Virus record (IMG/VR): IMGVR_UViG_3300032288_004213
Span: 1 to 23,498 of that record
Source: a virus
DNA: 23,498 nt
Strand: one strand, 5' to 3'
Shown: positions 4,287 through 22,001 of the stretch, piece after piece
Layout: the number at the start of each line of letters is the position of its first letter
Numbering within the stretch: position 1 is the first letter of the stretch
Made by a program: the position numbers and the translations under genes
The notes under the pieces: generated by a model
Databases searched by the model: none
Told to the model about the DNA's origin: nothing
The model's input: only the letters and a program-made list of their open reading frames with translations

Positions 4287-4294
4287 TATAAATA
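4287..4294 (+). promoter_or_regulatory. T4-type late promoter (TATAAATA)
   Basis: The exact late-promoter octamer TATAAATA lies in the short gap before the 451-residue fibre gene, 33 nt from its ATG. In T4-like phages this box is read by RNA polymerase with the gp55 sigma factor, whose gene is at 16221. Gap position and exact match make it convincing. Confidence 0.8.
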
Positions 4295-4327: not shown

Positions 4328-5683
4328 ATGGCAGTATTCGCTAACGTTGCAGGTACAGACTTATTCTCTACGTGGCGTACACGCTTCAATCAGTCTCTCA
4401 AAAGACTGAATGCTTTTGCCATTGACGAGTCATCACTTTACGCCAATACTCTTACAGCTAACGTATCTTTTACATCTAAGGGTTTAACAACTCTTCAAGG
4501 TAGAGCAACAGTAGGAACCAATCTTTCTGTTACTGGTAATACCTCTACAAACAAAGCGACTGTTACTTCGGCGCTGACAGTTTCTGGTAATACAACTCTT
4601 GGTGGTTGGGCAACCATTACAACAGCAAACGCAGTATTTGATGGATCTACAACCAACCCACTTATTCGTATTACACAACGTGGTACTGGTGATGTTCTTC
4701 GTATTGAAGATTCTACCACTACAGATACAACACCGCTTGTTATTAAAGCGGACGGTATATTTGTTAAAGGTACTTCAAACGCATATAGTTTTTACAGTGC
4801 CACAAATCAATATACTCCTGGATTTCAAACGCATGCTATAAGTTCTGCTCTTGCGTCATGGGGGCAATATGGTTGGAACGGTGTTACACCAATTCACGCT
4901 TTTGCTGTTTCAAATACAGCGATAAACAGTTATGGTGCTGTTGCTCCAGGCGAAACGCTTGGTCTTATTTCTTTTACAGGTGCAAACAATTCAGCATTTA
5001 CTGAAGGAGCAAGAATTTTAGGTATAATTCCTACAGGAGCAATTACAACTGGTCAGTATATTCCTGTTGAACTTAGATTTGCAACTTCTCCAGGCGGCTC
5101 TACTGCAACACAAAATCGTTTCTTTATTTACTCAAACGGTCATTCTTATTTCACACAAACACTTGCTGTAAATCAAAACTTTACAGTTAATGGAAATACT
5201 GTACTAGGTAACTCAAATACAGCTGATAGAACAACAATAAGTGGTTTAACCACTGTTAAAGGTCGTCAGCTTGTAACTGCTAACTTTACCGTACAGGGTA
5301 ATACAACTTTAGGCGGAACTGGTAAAACAACATCAACGACTGGTTTGCTTGCACATACTGGTCGTGCAACAATCTCAACCAATTTGGCAGTATCAGGCAA
5401 TACAACAGTTGCAGGATTGATTGCTAACAACTCTCTTGGTACAGCAAATTATATCTTAAAAACAAACGGAACAACTGTATTCTGGGGTGCTGCTCCTGCA
5501 GCTGGTGGTGCTAAAGGTGGCGGTTCGGATCAAGTGTTTTATGAAAACGATGCAACTATTACAACAAACTATACAATTTCAACTAACAAAAATGCATTGT
5601 CACAAGGTCCTCTTACGATCAACAATGGTGTAGTTGTTACTGTTCCAAACAACTCAGTTTGGACTGTATTCGTAACGGCTTAA
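4328..5683 (+). CDS. Tail fibre protein with repeated TVSGNTT units
   Basis: This 451-residue protein starts with an N-terminal module (FSTWRTRFNQSLKRLNAF) that is common in fibres of marine T4-like phages and probably attaches to the tail. From residue ~45 it has short beta repeats of the type (N)LxVxGNTTxGG, seen at about 60-100 and again at about 285-360, with a globular insert between (residues ~100-280, containing RITQRGTGDVLRIED and a FFIYSNGHSYF stretch). The C-terminus has a widespread fibre-tip module: GGGSDQVFYENDATITTNYT, then GPLTINNGVVVTVPNNSVW. The beta repeats suggest a trimeric shaft. The ribosome binding site is weak (no clear GGAG before the ATG), but the late promoter just upstream and the conserved N-terminus support this start. 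It is probably a short or side tail fibre. Confidence 0.75.
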   Translation: MAVFANVAGTDLFSTWRTRFNQSLKRLNAFAIDESSLYANTLTANVSFTSKGLTTLQGRATVGTNLSVTGNTSTNKATVTSALTVSGNTTLGGWATITTANAVFDGSTTNPLIRITQRGTGDVLRIEDSTTTDTTPLVIKADGIFVKGTSNAYSFYSATNQYTPGFQTHAISSALASWGQYGWNGVTPIHAFAVSNTAINSYGAVAPGETLGLISFTGANNSAFTEGARILGIIPTGAITTGQYIPVELRFATSPGGSTATQNRFFIYSNGHSYFTQTLAVNQNFTVNGNTVLGNSNTADRTTISGLTTVKGRQLVTANFTVQGNTTLGGTGKTTSTTGLLAHTGRATISTNLAVSGNTTVAGLIANNSLGTANYILKTNGTTVFWGAAPAAGGAKGGGSDQVFYENDATITTNYTISTNKNALSQGPLTINNGVVVTVPNNSVWTVFVTA

Positions 5684-6410: not shown

Positions 6411-6796
6411 TGCCAACATCAGTATCATTTGATGGCAGTGGATATATCTACGATGCATTTGGTAATATTCGAAGTATTCCAAATAAAACATCTACTGCTT
6501 ATTATCCTTTAGCTTCAAAGGCCGGTACTGAAAGTGTACCAGGATCTAATGATATAGGATTTAGATTTCTACCTAGTCAATCAATAACAATCAATCCTGG
6601 ATTATTTTCTATTGGCGATGTAATAAACATATATTGTTCTTCTACTATATCAATTCTTTCAGGATCCGGAGTAACAATTAGATTGGCAGGAACTGCTACA
6701 ACAGGAACATTATATCTAGCACAATTTGGTATAGCAACTCTTTTATGTGTTGGCAGTGATACATTTGTTGCTTCAGGCGGAGGTTTATACGCATGA
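6410..6796 (+). CDS. Small tail/adhesin protein, tandem paralogue 3
   Basis: The protein has 128 residues and starts at the ATG overlapping the previous stop by one base. A longer upstream reading would run inside the previous gene. It belongs to the same family as the two proteins before it (FGNIRSIPNKTSTAYY, ITINPGLFSIGDVINIY, GSGVTIRLAGTATTG, YLAQFGIATLLCVG, FVASGGGL) but is the most diverged. It carries an extra ~10 residues near position 35-50 (KAGTESVPGSNDIGF) and lacks the QTITQG motif, which is replaced by SISILSGSG-like sequence. It ends by overlapping the glycine-rich gene with ATGA. Probably a tail-tip accessory; function not known. Confidence 0.65.
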   Translation: MPTSVSFDGSGYIYDAFGNIRSIPNKTSTAYYPLASKAGTESVPGSNDIGFRFLPSQSITINPGLFSIGDVINIYCSSTISILSGSGVTIRLAGTATTGTLYLAQFGIATLLCVGSDTFVASGGGLYA

Positions 6797-7536
6797 CGGC
6801 TTATAATGCAGTTTTAGGACATACAGTTATTGGTAAAACAGCAACAGTTGATTATCTTGTTGTTGCTGGTGGAGGTGGTGGTTCTAGTCCATCTGGAATA
6901 GGCGGCGGTGGTGGTGCTGGTGGTTATCGTACTGCAAATAGTTTTGCCGTTTCTTCTGGTGTATCACTTACAGTAACTGTTGGTGGCGGCGGGGCTGTTG
7001 GAGCAAAAGGTAGTGATTCTGTTTTTAGTTCTATCACATCAACTGGTGGTGGTTTAGGAAGTACAGGTACAACTACTGGCGGTGGCTCTGGAGGTTCTGG
7101 TGGTGCTCCTGGCGGTGCTGGTAATACTCCATCAACATCACCTTCACAAGGTAATGCTGGTCAAGCAGTGGCTGGTGGTCAGGGTGGTGGTGCAGGTAAA
7201 GTAGGCGGTGGCGGTGGGGTTATTGGTAGTGCTAATAATGCAATTTACCGTGATCAAAATACTGTAAATCCAGGAACTTTAGCATCAGGTGGAAATGGTA
7301 ATGCAGGAGCTTCGAGTCCTGGTAGTACCAATAGTGGAAATGGTGGTGGTGGTGGATATACTGCTCCTAAATGTGGAGGTACACAAACAGGTTCAGCAGG
7401 TGGATCTGGTGTTGTTTACGTTAGATATCGTTCGGATTATGCAGCTGCAGCATCAACTACTGGTTCACCAACAGTTACAGTTTCGAATGGTTGGAGAACG
7501 TATAAATGGACAACATCGGGTTCTATTACATTCTAA
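6793..7536 (+). CDS. Glycine-rich tail adhesin
   Basis: This 247-residue protein opens with a short beta part (YLVVAGGGGGSSPSGIG), then long glycine runs across residues 24-205 broken by Ser, Thr, Ala and Asn, a pattern suited to a polyglycine-II sandwich like that of the T4-group receptor-binding adhesin gp38 of phage S16. The C-terminus (SGVVYVRYRSDY, then TGSPTVTVSNGWRTYKWTTS and GSITF) is a known ending of many phage glycine-rich fibre proteins. The start overlaps the previous stop by ATGA. It probably sits at the fibre tip and contacts the host surface. The similarity to gp38 is by composition, not by clear alignment. It is not a signal-peptide-bearing cell wall protein. Confidence 0.7.
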   Translation: MTAYNAVLGHTVIGKTATVDYLVVAGGGGGSSPSGIGGGGGAGGYRTANSFAVSSGVSLTVTVGGGGAVGAKGSDSVFSSITSTGGGLGSTGTTTGGGSGGSGGAPGGAGNTPSTSPSQGNAGQAVAGGQGGGAGKVGGGGGVIGSANNAIYRDQNTVNPGTLASGGNGNAGASSPGSTNSGNGGGGGYTAPKCGGTQTGSAGGSGVVYVRYRSDYAAAASTTGSPTVTVSNGWRTYKWTTSGSITF

Positions 7537-7545
7537 GAGGAAGTT

Positions 7546-7932
7546 ATGGCACACTTTGCACAATTAGATGAAAACAATATTGTACTTCAAGTAATTGTTG
7601 TTCATAACAACGATTGTTTAGATGAAAACGGTAATGAAAATGAACAAGTAGGTATTAACTTCTGTAAGTCATTACTTGGAGCAAATACTCGTTGGGTTCA
7701 AACTAGCTATAATTCTAATTTTAGACATCGTTATGCTGGTATTGGATACATATATGATTCTGAACAAGATATTTTTATTCCACCTGCACCATATCCATCT
7801 TGGGAATATAGTGTTATTGTTGGACAATGGGAAGCACCAATAGCTCAACCCTTAGATGTTCCATTAGGAAACTATTGTGTTTGGAATGAAGAAAATCAAC
7901 AATGGGATATTGTCCCAATGCCAACAGAATAA
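7546..7932 (+). CDS. Small tail-region protein, possible fibre accessory or chaperone
   Basis: This 128-residue protein has a strong ribosome binding site (AGAGGAAG) and starts MAHFAQLDENNIVLQVIVV, a beginning I recognise from a family found beside fibre genes in many marine T4-like and other phages. It then has a Cys-containing helix (FCKSLLGANTRWVQTSYN), a Tyr/Phe-rich central region (HRYAGIGYIYD), a Pro-rich turn (PPAPYPSWEY) and a C-terminal part with several Trp (WNEENQQWDIVP). No enzyme motif is visible. The family is usually left as hypothetical or virion protein. Its constant place next to fibres suggests a fibre-associated or assembly role, but I cannot confirm this. Confidence 0.65.
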   Translation: MAHFAQLDENNIVLQVIVVHNNDCLDENGNENEQVGINFCKSLLGANTRWVQTSYNSNFRHRYAGIGYIYDSEQDIFIPPAPYPSWEYSVIVGQWEAPIAQPLDVPLGNYCVWNEENQQWDIVPMPTE

Positions 7933-7947
7933 TAGGGGATATATTAC

Positions 7948-8778
7948 ATGAAAACTATTGTGAATTTTTCTGGTGGATTAGATAGTATTTATGTTCTATG
8001 GAAAGAACTTACAACAACAGATAATAAAGTAACTGCTATTTACTATAGCGGCGAAAATTTCACTAACGAACAAATTGCTGAGTTTCCTTCCTTACAAATT
8101 ACCACTGGTAAATCAGCTGCACTTCGTTGGATGTATTGTCAACAAATTGCTGAAGTTATAAAACGTGAATCAAGAGACTTTACTCTTGTTAAAGAAATGT
8201 ATGATCTTTCGATTATCAAAAATATCACACATACATATGCTCCTATTGTAAGAGCTATTCAAACCATAAAGAACATCAATAACGGTCAATTTGATCGTTT
8301 TATGGCTGGTATCAGTCGTGACAATGATGGTTGGTACATTGATAGCAATGATTCTTCGTCTTCAGCAGTGGTAGATTGTTTTGCTAATAATGCAACTAGG
8401 GGCGAAATATATCTACCTTTAATTGAATCAAACTATACACCAGCTCATGCTTTTGCTGAATTACCAGAATCTCTTTTAACTATTCATCGTTCTTGCGATA
8501 ACAATCTTTATTCAACAAAAAATATTTCTTGCCATAACTGCTATAAGTGTCATATGCACAAGTTTGCTAAGAAGCTCATGAGTGAAGGCAAGACACCAGA
8601 TGAAATCTATGATATCTATACCGAAAAAAGTATAATGCCAAACGGTATGTGGAAAAGTCAAAAAATTTGGCTTTCTGAAGAAGTTCCTTTGTATAAGATT
8701 GAAAGTATTTGGGAAAATATAGAAAACTTCGAAATTCCAAAATGGAAATCATATTACAAAGTACCGAATAGCCAATAA
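7948..8778 (+). CDS. QueC-like PP-loop ATP-dependent enzyme
   Basis: This 276-residue protein has the PP-loop pyrophosphatase signature SGGLDS at residues 8-13, which binds ATP and activates a carbonyl by adenylation. A cysteine cluster near the C-terminal third (C183, C195, C198, C201; C-x11-C-x2-C-x2-C) resembles the zinc site of QueC, the enzyme that makes the nitrile of 7-cyano-7-deazaguanine. QueC is usually ~220-230 residues; this protein has an extra C-terminal ~50 residues rich in Trp, Lys and Glu. It stands alone between tail and head genes: no queD, queE, folE or DNA transglycosylase is in the window. Possible roles are preQ0 synthesis for deazaguanine DNA or tRNA modification, or another PP-loop reaction such as thiolation. 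The ribosome binding site AGGGGA fits the ATG. The PP-loop call is firm; the exact substrate is uncertain. Confidence 0.7.
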   Translation: MKTIVNFSGGLDSIYVLWKELTTTDNKVTAIYYSGENFTNEQIAEFPSLQITTGKSAALRWMYCQQIAEVIKRESRDFTLVKEMYDLSIIKNITHTYAPIVRAIQTIKNINNGQFDRFMAGISRDNDGWYIDSNDSSSSAVVDCFANNATRGEIYLPLIESNYTPAHAFAELPESLLTIHRSCDNNLYSTKNISCHNCYKCHMHKFAKKLMSEGKTPDEIYDIYTEKSIMPNGMWKSQKIWLSEEVPLYKIESIWENIENFEIPKWKSYYKVPNSQ

Positions 8779-8781
8779 TTT

Positions 8782-8789
8782 TATAAATA
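8782..8789 (+). promoter_or_regulatory. T4-type late promoter (TATAAATA)
   Basis: An exact TATAAATA lies in the 36-nt gap after the PP-loop gene and 25 nt before the ATG of the first prohead core gene. It would start the late transcript for the prohead core genes and the protease. An AAGGA ribosome binding site follows. Confidence 0.85.
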
Positions 8790-17815: not shown

Positions 17816-19515
17816 TTTATTTTACTAAAGTTCGTTGGAAGAACTTTCTTTCAACTGGTAATGCCTTTACAGAAATTCAGCTAGATCAAAATGACTCAAC
17901 CCTCATCGTTGGTGAAAACGGTGCGGGTAAGTCAACGATGCTTGACGCCTTGTGTTTTGGTTTGTATGGCAAGCCGTTTCGCAAAGTCAAAAAGGATCAG
18001 CTTATTAACTCAGTCAATGGTCGAGATGTTCTTGTCGAGATTGAGTTTTCTGTTCATGATCATCAGTACGTTGTAAGACGTGGAATCAAACCAAGTATAT
18101 TTGAAATTATAGAAGATGGCGTACTGATTGACCAAGACGCAGCTGCTCGTGACTATCAAGATTATCTGGAGAAGCATATTCTCAAGTTAAGCATGAAGTC
18201 ATTTACACAGATTGTGATTCTTGGCTCGTCGTCGTTTGTTCCGTTTATGCAACTGTCAACAAATGTTCGACGTGAAGTCATCGAGGATCTGTTAGATATC
18301 CGCGTCTTTTCCTCGATGGCACTTCTTCTCAAAGATCGCGTAGCAACTAATCGCGAGGAGCATAAGCTCAATGAACAAGACATCTCTTACACGCAGGAAA
18401 GTATCAGAGCGCAAGAGAAGCTTCGAACGGAGCTTGACGAAAAGCGAACCGAGAAGATTGAGGAATTCCAGAAACGTATCAAGCAGGCTCAAGAGAGTAT
18501 TGCTCGCGAGGAAGCGCTCGCGGCTGTATTGGGATCTTCCATTGAGGAACTGATGGAAGGATTAGGTGATCGCGATGCAGTTAATGCTCGTATCCAAAAG
18601 ATCCTGACACTTGAGAAAAATCTAGAGTCCAAGAAAACAAACGCTCGTAAGAGTATAAAGTTCTATACTGAGAATGATGAGTGTCCGACTTGTACACAAT
18701 ATATTGACGATCACATCAAGGTGGAGAAGATCGGTGAAAAAGAAAAAGTCATTGAAGAAGTCGAAGAAGCACTTGAAAAGCTGTCTGACGAACTCGCAAA
18801 AGGAGAAGATACTCTCGCTGCAATATCAGAAGTACAGCGAAACATATCTCAGAAGCAGAATGATCTTAGCTCTAAACTCAACAACATCAAAGTCTATCAA
18901 AAAGAAATCTCTGTTTACAACAAAGAAATCGACAGTCTTAACAAAACGGAAGCAACCTATACACAATCCAACATATCTACCTTACAATCAGATCTTCAAC
19001 GATTTCTGGTGATAAAAGAACGTATCCTACGTGACAAGGAAATGTATGAGTTGGCTACTATCATTCTTCGTGATAGCGGAATCAAGTCTCGTATCATCAA
19101 GCAGTATATTCCAGTCATAAATACCCTTGTCAATAAGTATCTTGCTGCTATGGACTTCTTTGTGAAGTTTGAATTGAACGAATCGTTTGAAGAAAGAATC
19201 CTGTCACGACATCGTGATGACTTTACTTACGACTCGTTCTCTGAAGGCGAGAAGATGCGTATCGACCTTGCGTTATTGTTTACCTGGCGTTCTATTGCAC
19301 GCATGAAGAATAGTGCAAGTACCAATCTTCTAATTCTTGACGAAGTATTTGATGCATCTCTTGATGCCAACGGCTGCGACGAGTTTTTGAAACTCATACA
19401 TAATCTAGAAGATACCAATATCTTTGTCATCTCCCATAAAGGTGATGTACTTCACGACAAGTTTAGTAACATTTTGCGCTTTACAAAAGTCAAAAATTTT
19501 AGTAGGATAGTCTGA
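17812..19515 (+). CDS. 46: Recombination endonuclease subunit (T4 gp46, Rad50/SbcC family)
   Basis: The protein has 567 residues; T4 gp46 has 560. It is the SMC-like ATPase partner of gp47. Domains in order: N-terminal ATPase lobe with Walker A GENGAGKS (34-41) and the Q-loop region SFTQIVILGSSSFVPFMQL; a first coiled coil (about 175-285) rich in Glu, Lys, Arg and Gln; a zinc hook CPTC (Cys291, Cys294); the returning coiled coil (about 300-410); and the C-terminal lobe with the ABC signature SFSEGEKMR (475-482 or so), Walker B LLILDEVFD (506-514) and the switch His in VISHKGD. All parts needed for an active complex are seen. It overlaps gene 47 by ATGA and the deformylase gene by one base. 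Confidence 0.95.
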   Translation: MIYFTKVRWKNFLSTGNAFTEIQLDQNDSTLIVGENGAGKSTMLDALCFGLYGKPFRKVKKDQLINSVNGRDVLVEIEFSVHDHQYVVRRGIKPSIFEIIEDGVLIDQDAAARDYQDYLEKHILKLSMKSFTQIVILGSSSFVPFMQLSTNVRREVIEDLLDIRVFSSMALLLKDRVATNREEHKLNEQDISYTQESIRAQEKLRTELDEKRTEKIEEFQKRIKQAQESIAREEALAAVLGSSIEELMEGLGDRDAVNARIQKILTLEKNLESKKTNARKSIKFYTENDECPTCTQYIDDHIKVEKIGEKEKVIEEVEEALEKLSDELAKGEDTLAAISEVQRNISQKQNDLSSKLNNIKVYQKEISVYNKEIDSLNKTEATYTQSNISTLQSDLQRFLVIKERILRDKEMYELATIILRDSGIKSRIIKQYIPVINTLVNKYLAAMDFFVKFELNESFEERILSRHRDDFTYDSFSEGEKMRIDLALLFTWRSIARMKNSASTNLLILDEVFDASLDANGCDEFLKLIHNLEDTNIFVISHKGDVLHDKFSNILRFTKVKNFSRIV

Positions 19516-20045
19516 TGGATCTAATTAAAGGTAATGATTTTCGTCTCAAAGAAACGTGCCCAGAGTTCAACTTTGAAACTGGTTATCTTATGGAAGATAA
19601 CACTGTTCTTCAAGCCAAAGAATTATATGAACTATTACGTGACAAGATGATTGAGCATAAAGGTGTTGGTCTTTCTGCCTGCCAACTTGGTATTATGACA
19701 CGCGTATTTGTAATTGGTAATCCATCCGATCCAGCAAGTATTATTGGTGTATTCAATCCATTGATTGTTGATTATAGTGAGGAAACAGTTGTCTATGAAG
19801 AAGGATGTGTCAGTTATCCAGGACTGTTTATCAAAATCAAACGCCCTCGTTCCATTCGCGTCCGTTATCGTGGTTGGAACGGAGAGGCTGATACCACCCG
19901 CTACGAAGGTTACACAGCACGTGTATTTCAGCACGAGTACGACCATCTTAACGGAATCACGTTCCAAAGCCGCGCCAATCGTTATCACCTAGAGCAAGCT
20001 CGTAACTTCAAAACAAAAGCAGATAGAAAGTTAAAGTTGGCATGA
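19515..20045 (+). CDS. def: Peptide deformylase
   Basis: This 176-residue metalloenzyme removes the formyl group from N-terminal Met of new proteins. All three family motifs are intact: GVGLSACQLG (residues 50-59), EGCVSYPG (96-103, metal ligand Cys98), and QHEYDHLNG (139-147, ligands His140 and His144, catalytic Glu141). Size fits a full catalytic domain. Phage deformylases of T4-like cyanophages are usually shorter at the C-terminus; here there is a basic end (NFKTKADRKLKLA). In those phages the enzyme is thought to aid turnover or synthesis of host photosystem or other proteins; here the target is unknown. It is linked with gene 46 by a one-base overlap and with the methyltransferase by ATGA. 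Confidence 0.95.
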   Translation: MDLIKGNDFRLKETCPEFNFETGYLMEDNTVLQAKELYELLRDKMIEHKGVGLSACQLGIMTRVFVIGNPSDPASIIGVFNPLIVDYSEETVVYEEGCVSYPGLFIKIKRPRSIRVRYRGWNGEADTTRYEGYTARVFQHEYDHLNGITFQSRANRYHLEQARNFKTKADRKLKLA

Positions 20046-21328
20046 CTGCATATCAACCATATACTGTAGACGATGTAAAGAAATCGTCAGCCCGTGAATT
20101 GTTTACAGTTGTTTCTACATTTGCTGGTGGCGGTGGTAGCTCTACAGGCTATCGTCTAGCCGGTGGTAAAGTTATTGCCATCAACGAGTTTGTCGAGGAA
20201 GCAATCAAAACATACTCGTTAAACTTTCCAGACACAAAGATTGTTCCTGGTGATATCAAAAAGATTACTGGTACCGATCTTCTTAGAGAAGCAAATCTAA
20301 AGCCAGGTGAACTTGATATTCTTGACGGTTCTCCTCCTTGTTCTGCTTTCTCTATCGCAGGTAAACGTGAGAAAGGTTGGAAAGGTGCAGTTCAGCGAAT
20401 TGGTAGTTCTATCAATATGGATGATGATATTCTTGAATTGAATGAAGGTGAAGTTATCGTCAACGATGGTATTAAAAGTTATAGTGACGGCAAGACAGTC
20501 GAAGCTATCGAGGATCTATTCCTTGAATACATTCGTATTGCAAAAGAGATTCAGCCTAAAGTAATCATTGCAGAAAATGTCAAAGGCATTACAATGGGCG
20601 AAGCAAAGAAGAAACTTGCTGAGTTTCAAAACGAGTTTGAAAATATTTCGCCTGGTTATATTGTAACCTATCATGTTCTCAATGCTGCCAACTATGGTGT
20701 ACCGCAAGCACGTGAGCGTTTGTTTTTTGTCTGCATTCGCAATGATGTTGCTGAAGCAGTCGGTATTAACTGGCTCAATATCGAAGCAGCTACGTTCCCA
20801 CCAGAAACAACTCCATATCGTCTAACAAAGGACAATCGTCCAGCTGACTATTCTCAACACGTTTCGCTTCGTGAAGCCATTGACAGCATCGAAAACGATC
20901 CAGCTGAAGTACAGATGCTTTTGGATTATGTGATGAATGGTTATCAGAAGAAGTTTATTCCTATTCTTCCATTCAATCCACCACGTCATGTAAAGCCAAG
21001 CGATCCAGAATATCGTGATATCAATCCAAAAGGATCTTGCTTTAGTATGATTCGTCCATGCCCAGATATGCCAAGTCCTACTATTACAGCAAACGGCAAC
21101 AAGCTATCAGTTTCTGGTGTTGTACATTATAATCAGAATAGAAAACTTACAATCAAAGAGCTAAAACGAGTAATGGGTCTACCGGAGGACTACATAGCAA
21201 CAGGTAATTTTGAAAAGCAATCCGAGAGAATTGGACGTATGGTTGCTCCTAAGGTTCTAGCAGCCCTTGCATCCAGAGTTTATGAACAAGTATTGAAACC
21301 ATATAAGGAACTACACAATGACAGGTAA
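20042..21328 (+). CDS. Cytosine-C5 DNA methyltransferase, possibly a carboxymethyltransferase
   Basis: The protein has 428 residues. Motif I is TFAGGGGSSTGYRLAGG (26-42), motif IV GSPPCSAFSIAG with catalytic Cys100, motif VI AENV (Glu178-Val180), motif VIII QARERLFFV (222-230), then a target recognition region (about 240-340), motif IX with SPTITANGN and RKLTIKELKRVMGLPEDY, and motif X ERIGRMVAPKV. The enzyme should attack C6 of cytosine and transfer a group to C5. Two oddities stand out: about 40 extra residues between motifs IV and VI compared with M.HhaI, and Arg399 in motif X where most family members have Asn (GNSV). It overlaps by 11 nt with the next gene, a CmoA-like carboxy-SAM synthase, so its donor may be carboxy-SAM and its product 5-carboxymethylcytosine. 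The C5-methyltransferase family is certain; the unusual donor is inference. No restriction partner is nearby. The target sequence is unknown. Confidence 0.93.
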   Translation: MTAYQPYTVDDVKKSSARELFTVVSTFAGGGGSSTGYRLAGGKVIAINEFVEEAIKTYSLNFPDTKIVPGDIKKITGTDLLREANLKPGELDILDGSPPCSAFSIAGKREKGWKGAVQRIGSSINMDDDILELNEGEVIVNDGIKSYSDGKTVEAIEDLFLEYIRIAKEIQPKVIIAENVKGITMGEAKKKLAEFQNEFENISPGYIVTYHVLNAANYGVPQARERLFFVCIRNDVAEAVGINWLNIEAATFPPETTPYRLTKDNRPADYSQHVSLREAIDSIENDPAEVQMLLDYVMNGYQKKFIPILPFNPPRHVKPSDPEYRDINPKGSCFSMIRPCPDMPSPTITANGNKLSVSGVVHYNQNRKLTIKELKRVMGLPEDYIATGNFEKQSERIGRMVAPKVLAALASRVYEQVLKPYKELHNDR

Positions 21329-22001
21329 GTTTACATTTGCTACGCGTGAAGAAGGTTTCGACAATCATATCGACGGTTCAATCCGTGGTTATGGTGATCT
21401 TTGGCAAGACGTAGTTGATATCTCCCAATACTTTGTCGAAAATCATACAATGGTAGCAGACATTGGTTGTTCTACAGGCAAGATGCTCAAGAGTATGATT
21501 ACACAAAATACCTTTGCACCTCATGCTATGTACGAAGGTATTGAAGTTGAAGAGGACTTCTATCCCGCTTATGCTCAAGATGAAAATGAATGGCATCAGC
21601 TTCAGTATTATCGTGGTGATGTTCTTGGTTATAACTTTCATAACTGTTCTTATGTAACCAGTATCTTCACTTTGCAGTTTATGTCTCATGCTCATCGCAA
21701 GGAAGTTTTCAATAAAGTATATGACGGTTTGAATCCTGGCGGTGCTTTTGTTTTTGCTGAAAAGACAATGCCTGAAAGTGTTCGTATTCATGAGATTCGT
21801 ACCTTTACATACTATGACTTCAAGCGTCGAACATTTACCACAGAAGATATTATGGACAAGGAACGTCAACTCCGTCATATGACTAAGCCATCCACCCGTG
21901 AAGAATTGGTTGATATGTGCAAGTATGCCGGATTCAGAGAGGTCGACACCTTCTGGCAGAACCATGCATTTACAGGTTTCATTGCTATCAAAAGCCCATA
22001 A
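21318..22001 (+). CDS. CmoA-like carboxy-S-adenosylmethionine synthase
   Basis: The protein has 227 residues; E. coli CmoA has 247. CmoA turns SAM and prephenate into carboxy-SAM, normally used by CmoB on tRNA wobble uridine. Compared with the E. coli protein from memory, the likeness is clear throughout: FDNHIDGSIRGYGDL near the N-terminus, VADIGCSTGKML (46-57, SAM-binding motif I), SIFTLQFMS (115-123; E. coli NFTLQFLE), KVYDGLNPGGAFVFAEK (133-149; E. coli KIYQGLNPGGALVLSEK), DFKRR, and YAGFREVDTFWQNHAFTGFI at the end. Arg183 aligns without gaps from FKR to E. coli Arg199, which holds the extra carboxylate. No CmoB is in the window. The gene starts inside the cytosine methyltransferase gene after AAGGA, so the two are co-translated. 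A plain methyltransferase remains possible but is less likely. Confidence 0.85.
   Translation: MTGKFTFATREEGFDNHIDGSIRGYGDLWQDVVDISQYFVENHTMVADIGCSTGKMLKSMITQNTFAPHAMYEGIEVEEDFYPAYAQDENEWHQLQYYRGDVLGYNFHNCSYVTSIFTLQFMSHAHRKEVFNKVYDGLNPGGAFVFAEKTMPESVRIHEIRTFTYYDFKRRTFTTEDIMDKERQLRHMTKPSTREELVDMCKYAGFREVDTFWQNHAFTGFIAIKSP

Follow-up and report, generated by a model that had tools for sequence, protein, structure and literature searches.

We identified, in a T4-like phage fragment, a gene for a QueC-like PP-loop enzyme that lies directly behind a tail-fibre-tip protein and a chaperone-like protein, and that, judging from its modelled fold and its sequence, is best read as belonging to a previously undescribed QueC-superfamily branch. 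The family has a QueC-like predicted fold, a retained ATP loop, an altered substrate pocket, a dispensable zinc site and tight linkage to the fibre cassette; that the enzyme is active, that it targets a fibre protein and what type of bond it forms are inferred. At a confidence a little short of even, we hypothesize that the branch works with the tail-fibre tip and uses ATP-dependent carboxylate activation to modify a tip component.

The stretch analysed, hereafter the window, is the whole of IMG/VR virus record IMGVR_UViG_3300032288_004213 (23,498 nt; a virus fragment of ~23.5 kb). By gene content it is a fragment of a T4-like phage, with genes for prohead protease, scaffold, major capsid protein, tail tube and UvsY as well as a UvsW-type helicase, a late sigma factor and gp47/gp46. 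The features relevant here are as follows.

4287 to 4294, plus strand: T4-type late-promoter motif TATAAATA at the start of the tail-fibre unit; the fibre gene follows at 4328 (motif scan)
6793 to 7536, plus strand: glycine-rich fibre-tip (adhesin-like) protein (Pfam Gly_rich_2, PF21722, E 6e-15)
7546 to 7932, plus strand: tail-fibre chaperone-like protein, 128 aa, directly upstream of the enzyme gene (phrog_7759, E 6e-44)
7948 to 8778, plus strand: QueC-like PP-loop enzyme, 276 aa, ATG start (ORF; predicted fold best matches QueC; QueC profile probability 98%)
7969 to 7986, plus strand: PP-loop SGGLDS, residues 8-13, ATP pyrophosphate-binding motif (sequence)
8320 to 8331, plus strand: family-specific D/E-N-D-G motif, residues 125-128 (N126 and G128 invariant in 17 core members)
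8494 to 8550, plus strand: zinc-type cysteine cluster C183-x11-C195-x2-C198-x2-C201 (sequence; aligns with the QueC zinc site)
8551 to 8775, plus strand: C-terminal extension past the zinc site (conservation in 17 members; alignment with QueC structures stops near residue 226 of the model)
8782 to 8789, plus strand: T4-type late-promoter motif TATAAATA for the prohead-core genes, marking the end of the fibre unit just past the enzyme stop (motif scan)

As the first-pass annotation had claimed, the gene lies between tail and head modules, with the tail-fibre block on one side and the prohead core, protease and capsid genes on the other, and it is an orphan across this 23.5-kb fragment, in which no other deazaguanine gene (queD, folE or dpdA) was seen. 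No RNA family or tRNA was detected in the window. The enzyme gene has a G+C content of 0.33 against 0.41 for the window, and is no oddity inside its own block, since the adjoining chaperone gene is nearly equal at 0.34. We also observed a group of genes after gp46 for a peptide deformylase (19515-20045), a DNA methyltransferase (20042-21328) and a tRNA-methyltransferase-like protein (21318-22001).

The ORF is more than a chance reading frame, because homologues occur in the same gene order on many other contigs. One syntenic relative (L008) was found among 80 loci fetched via the neighbouring head protease, and repeated IMG/VR profile scans yielded 17 core and about 9 outer members, the core sharing 26-40% identity with the window protein. 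These scans used short peptide patterns and returned few loci, so the number of members is a minimum; every related record is a fragment, and the counts are not phylogenetically independent. Loci that were distant or in another context (L105-L121 and L122) were excluded from the core family. The first IMG/VR scans, with a single sequence and with the cysteine pattern, returned nothing, and tblastn with the window protein (up to E 10), two core members (L083 and L089) and one outer member (L098) found no match in 50,697 phage records. A genome collection gave a single weak bacterial PP-loop match, and thus no host or prophage source, and our literature search found no paper describing such a fibre-tip, chaperone and QueC-like cassette.

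The AF2 model of the enzyme (pLDDT 89.1, pTM 0.90) was compared with solved structures by VIA-align, in which QueC took the top rows with the widest coverage (3bl5, Z 14.4, rmsd 3.0 over 176 aa; 2pg3, Z 14.1, rmsd 3.9 over 191 aa) and several other N-type PP-loop enzymes tied within about 1. Argininosuccinate synthase and ArtA both reached Z 13.7 (146 aa for ArtA), Cap9 (9nto) 13.0 over 168 aa, and QatC (9y01) 11.8 over 193 aa. Sequence profiles resolve this near-tie toward QueC: the Pfam QueC model (PF06508) matched 23 of 26 members (best E 2.4e-9), the PADLOC QueC model matched 19 of 26, and hhalign to QueC gave 98.1% overall and 95.4% in a local comparison of the C-terminal half, which has no P-loop. 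NCBIfam results were mixed, with TIGR00364 (QueC) matching 12 members (best E-value 1.7e-7) and an argininosuccinate-synthase-related model matching 18. VIA-align, hhalign and Pfam together place the protein, including its C-terminal zinc half, in the QueC-type fold, which upholds the QueC-like PP-loop fold first proposed from motifs. The best PHROG match was phrog_1550 (E 9e-5), and in a viral structure library the closest models were those of viral proteins lacking a name or a characterised function; phage proteins annotated as 7-cyano-7-deazaguanine synthase came next.

Both motifs named at first pass, SGGLDS and C-x11-C-x2-C-x2-C, are present exactly as described, and they differ in how strictly relatives keep them. 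SGGxDS is retained in 25 of 26 members, with S8, G9, G10, D12 and S13 invariant in the 17 core members. The zinc cysteines, whose first spacing in the window is x11 against the C-x8-CxxCxxC of canonical QueC, have disappeared from a clade of six members and separately from L085 (7 members), while the ATP loop was retained; L094 has four cysteines at a different spacing and was scored as lost. No cysteine is conserved across the whole family, and we rejected the zinc cluster as a catalytic signature, given its loss at least twice.

The substrate pocket has been altered as well. In profile alignment, as distinct from superposed coordinates, the position of E. coli QueC Y131 is Ser or Ala in 16 of 17 core members, that of D133 is Ala, Val, Leu or Glu in the 17, and that of K165 is an invariant Tyr in the family; QueC R99 and the VPxRN and YxQxHxxE motifs are not conserved. 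Canonical QueC conserves these residues, among them Y131 and D133 of the CDG-binding YPDC motif, and mutation has shown part of them to be necessary in E. coli QueC (PMC13329287). The family has its own invariant residues (R76, N111, D116, N126, G128, F145, R151, G152, Y163, W235, W241, P264 and W266), and its D/E-N-D-G motif occupies the loop that carries the substrate motif in QueC. The protein runs ~47 residues further past the last zinc cysteine than E. coli QueC (231 aa), in agreement with the ~50 extra residues reported earlier, and this extension holds conserved W235-x-S-M/Q-K-x-W241 and P264-x-W266 motifs in 17 members. The QueC chemistry (preQ0) that the first-pass annotation had read from the motifs is not supported, given the unconserved substrate-binding residues and a zinc cluster that relatives dispense with, and canonical preQ0 synthesis is unlikely.

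A common feature of the loci is the chaperone-like gene, which lies directly 5' of the enzyme gene in 14 of the 15 loci with upstream sequence; the exception, L094, has a glycosyltransferase in that slot. The enzyme gene and the gene before it share 4 nt, start codon on stop codon, in 13 of 15 loci; the exceptions are the window (15-nt gap) and L084 (6 nt). The glycine-rich gene usually stands two genes upstream of the enzyme, as tested by Pfam in the window and L083 and by reading elsewhere. In 80 control loci fetched by the chaperone alone, a PP-loop gene adjoined the chaperone in none, and a 4-nt overlap was found in 4 of 73 (Fisher 2e-10 for enzyme loci against control, the rows not being independent). 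The absence of a PP-loop gene from these 80 loci implies that the enzyme depends on the chaperone neighbourhood and not vice versa. Moreover, chaperone and enzyme distances are correlated (Mantel r 0.60, p 0.0006, 12 loci). The 128-aa protein encoded upstream in L087 (at 2262) and L089 (at 6001) shares its C-terminal tail with the chaperone but begins differently (MFARIK...). This suggests modularity, with the tail as the part that is paired with the enzyme.

The chaperone-like protein was itself modelled with confidence (pLDDT 90.8). Foldseek found nothing significant for it, and a second structural comparison gave two matches and no others, to the fibre complex of Pam3 (7ypx_a; Z 6.2, rmsd 1.7 over 55 aa) and to the tail-fibre/chaperone complex of Mu (5yvq_B; Z 2.8). 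As a sign of the fibre-binding N-terminal domain found in Pam3 gp25 and Mu Tfa, the Pam3 value is modest and below the level of a clear match taken alone. The matched Pam3 chain has 162 residues, the length of gp25. The Pam3 match, though not clear on the Z of 6.2 for this model, agrees with the gene order of the cassette.

The cassette occurs in at least two phage types, and it has probably moved between them, as indicated by the differing contexts of four loci: L008 lies in T4-like head surroundings, L083 lies beside another virion protein family (phrog_3287), and L088 and L092 adjoin a T4-like neck gene. The nearest pair, L008 and L083, sit in different phage types. Outer members (L098-L104) lie away from the chaperone gene.

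The tail-fibre end is a hypervariable region where unrelated genes gather. Several further genes were recorded in the loci examined. An unrelated 348-aa PP-loop protein (YSGGSDS) occupies the same slot before the prohead core, beside a Hint-like protein, in L010 (4019-5065) and L011 (6425-7471); it gave no clear family match, and a similar protein starts at position 2764 of L098. Three or more tandem PP-loop genes lie near tail or neck genes in L101, L102 and L104, and phrog_1550 is matched by one of these genes. In L098 the QueC-like gene is next to a gene for a 2OG-Fe(II) oxygenase (6912-7535), and such oxygenases occur near the chaperone gene in other phages (OR003939 and, by sequence reading, L181 and L212).

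The earlier suggestion that the enzyme is expressed with tail genes gains support from the late-promoter motif TATAAATA, found at 4287 and 8782 and nowhere between, so that the enzyme gene would be the last of a late tail-fibre unit. The motif occurs five times in the window against 1.5 expected on both strands, and all five lie on the coding strand. A sigma-70 promoter scan was uninformative (20 found against 22 expected).

The main rival to a fibre-tip role holds that the enzyme alters not the virion but a secreted factor or a molecule of the host surface (for example in a superinfection block), and that it travels with fibre genes because receptor choice has to match receptor masking. TctC-like proteins, apparently with signal peptides, lie directly 3' of the enzyme in L082-L085, L093, L094, L096 and L097, and glycosyltransferases are found near it in L084, L085, L087, L089 and L094; with such neighbours in several phages, the target could be a host surface molecule. 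However, the TctC-like gene is absent from the window and L008, the immediate overlapping partner is the chaperone-like gene and not the TctC gene, and a gene in a late unit, as in the window, comes late for superinfection exclusion; we judge this reading unlikely. Among outer members, TctC-like secreted solute-binding proteins were seen twice near the QueC-like gene (L098-L100 and L103). It is also conceivable, and in our estimate quite unlikely, that the gene is a counter-defence gene or other moron, a hitch-hiker of the variable fibre region whose product disrupts immunity by the host's QatC or Cap9 or has some unrelated small molecule as its substrate. Weak matches to QatC models (5 and 6 of 26 members in two model scans), the hypervariability of the fibre end and the unrelated PP-loop protein in the same slot of L010 and L011 are in its favour, whereas the strictly kept ATP loop, the position in a late tail unit, the nucleotides shared with the chaperone gene in most loci and the correlation between the divergence of the two speak against it.

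Readings drawn from known PP-loop chemistry fare worse. Sulphur transfer to tRNA or to a small molecule, by an enzyme of the LarE, TtuA, ThiI or MnmA type, would account for the Foldseek ranking by E-value, in which LarE and TtuA come first, and for a weak NCBIfam match to LarE. It is nevertheless very improbable: QueC heads the VIA-align ranking and has the longest alignments there, the match to QueC persists in the C-terminal half, where there is no P-loop, and no cysteine is conserved family-wide. We rejected the idea that Foldseek E-values alone make the protein a plain LarE/TtuA relative; the TM-scores behind that ranking are low (0.30-0.39). A canonical QueC, converting CDG to preQ0 for host tRNA queuosine or phage DNA deazaguanine, has the fold and the zinc cluster of the window protein behind it, and against it the replacement of Y131, D133 and K165, the loss of R99 and YxQxHxxE and of the zinc site in 7 members, and the 26 related records, all fragments, in which neither QueD nor a TGT/DpdA-type protein (PF01702 model) was matched; we consider it very improbable. 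Absence from fragments is suggestive only, and on these searches a second DNA-modification pathway or a tRNA support role, both raised at first pass, is unsupported.

Of the possibilities first put forward, a putative new PP-loop activity directed at a virion component is the best fit, since the gene belongs so closely to the tail-fibre-tip and chaperone cassette. We propose that the enzyme would be made late, its gene coming directly behind those for the glycine-rich tip protein and the chaperone-like partner. On the model of QueC, Cap9, ArtA and PesC, it could use ATP to adenylate a carboxylate (or amide), and the activated group might then be attacked by an amine or ammonia. Gene context points to a fibre-tip component as the candidate target, most likely the tip protein or the chaperone. 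A more specific version, which we regard as doubtful, is that the virus uses a QueC-family enzyme to modify covalently its own receptor-binding fibre tip or the chaperone, for example by joining a small carboxylic acid or converting a carboxyl end to an amide or nitrile. There is precedent for protein modification by the QueC family in Cap9 and, by inference, QatC (PMC13279940, PMC13329287). Counting against the fibre-tip reading are the hypervariable region, the modest chaperone match, the outer members away from the chaperone, and the lack of a Met-Gly partner: the substrates of Cap9 and QatC begin with Met-Gly, and no such start is conserved among the neighbours, the chaperone beginning MAHFA and the tip proteins MT, MS, MA or MP.

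Recent work has shown that enzymes of the QueC family modify proteins in bacterial immunity; if the fibre-tip reading is true, phages use the same fold on the structure that determines their choice of host. Host-range prediction and structural models of fibres would then both have to reckon with chemical finishing of the tail fibre. The three-gene cassette is a small system, in which the substrate could be found directly by mass spectrometry.

Compared with canonical QueC, the new family shares the fold over residues 1-226, SGGxDS and zinc-type cysteines (the latter in more than half of the members, the window protein among them), and differs in its replaced substrate motifs, its conserved extra C-terminal region, its fibre-cassette context and the lack of visible preQ0 pathway genes. 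Single QueC-like genes without a pathway have been described in phages (e.g. ECML-4, SFP10 and Muddy; Hutinet 2019, PMC6884629), where they were set aside as probably another subfamily (PMC6884629); the fibre-tip cassette was not recognised there, and tblastn tied our proteins to none of the phage records searched. QatC of qatABCD (9y01) and phrog_1550 likewise combine a QueC core with replaced Y and D substrate residues, which in QatC are two threonines (PMC13279940). QatC, however, has an N-terminal domain of ~145 aa and a QatB partner, whereas SGGLDS in the window protein begins at residue 8 and the gene lies beside fibre genes. The phrog_1550 protein (kuttervirus gp66, PMC10892097) has a QatC-like N-terminal extension of ~145 aa, and phages may thus also carry QatC-type enzymes. 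The nitrile synthetases ArtA and PesC share the PP-loop and ATP activation of a carboxylate or amide, PesC acting on a peptide C-terminus, but belong to argininosuccinate-synthase-like and asparagine-synthetase-like PP-loop families without the zinc half. Cap9 of type IV CBASS (9nto) keeps the QueC Y-x-D and modifies the N-terminal glycine of a CD-NTase, both of which are absent in the new family; it is nonetheless a QueC-fold enzyme with a comparable core (Z 13.0, 168 aa) that acts on a protein, and the phage enzyme, if our reading is true, would be a virion-directed counterpart of its protein-nucleobase conjugation.
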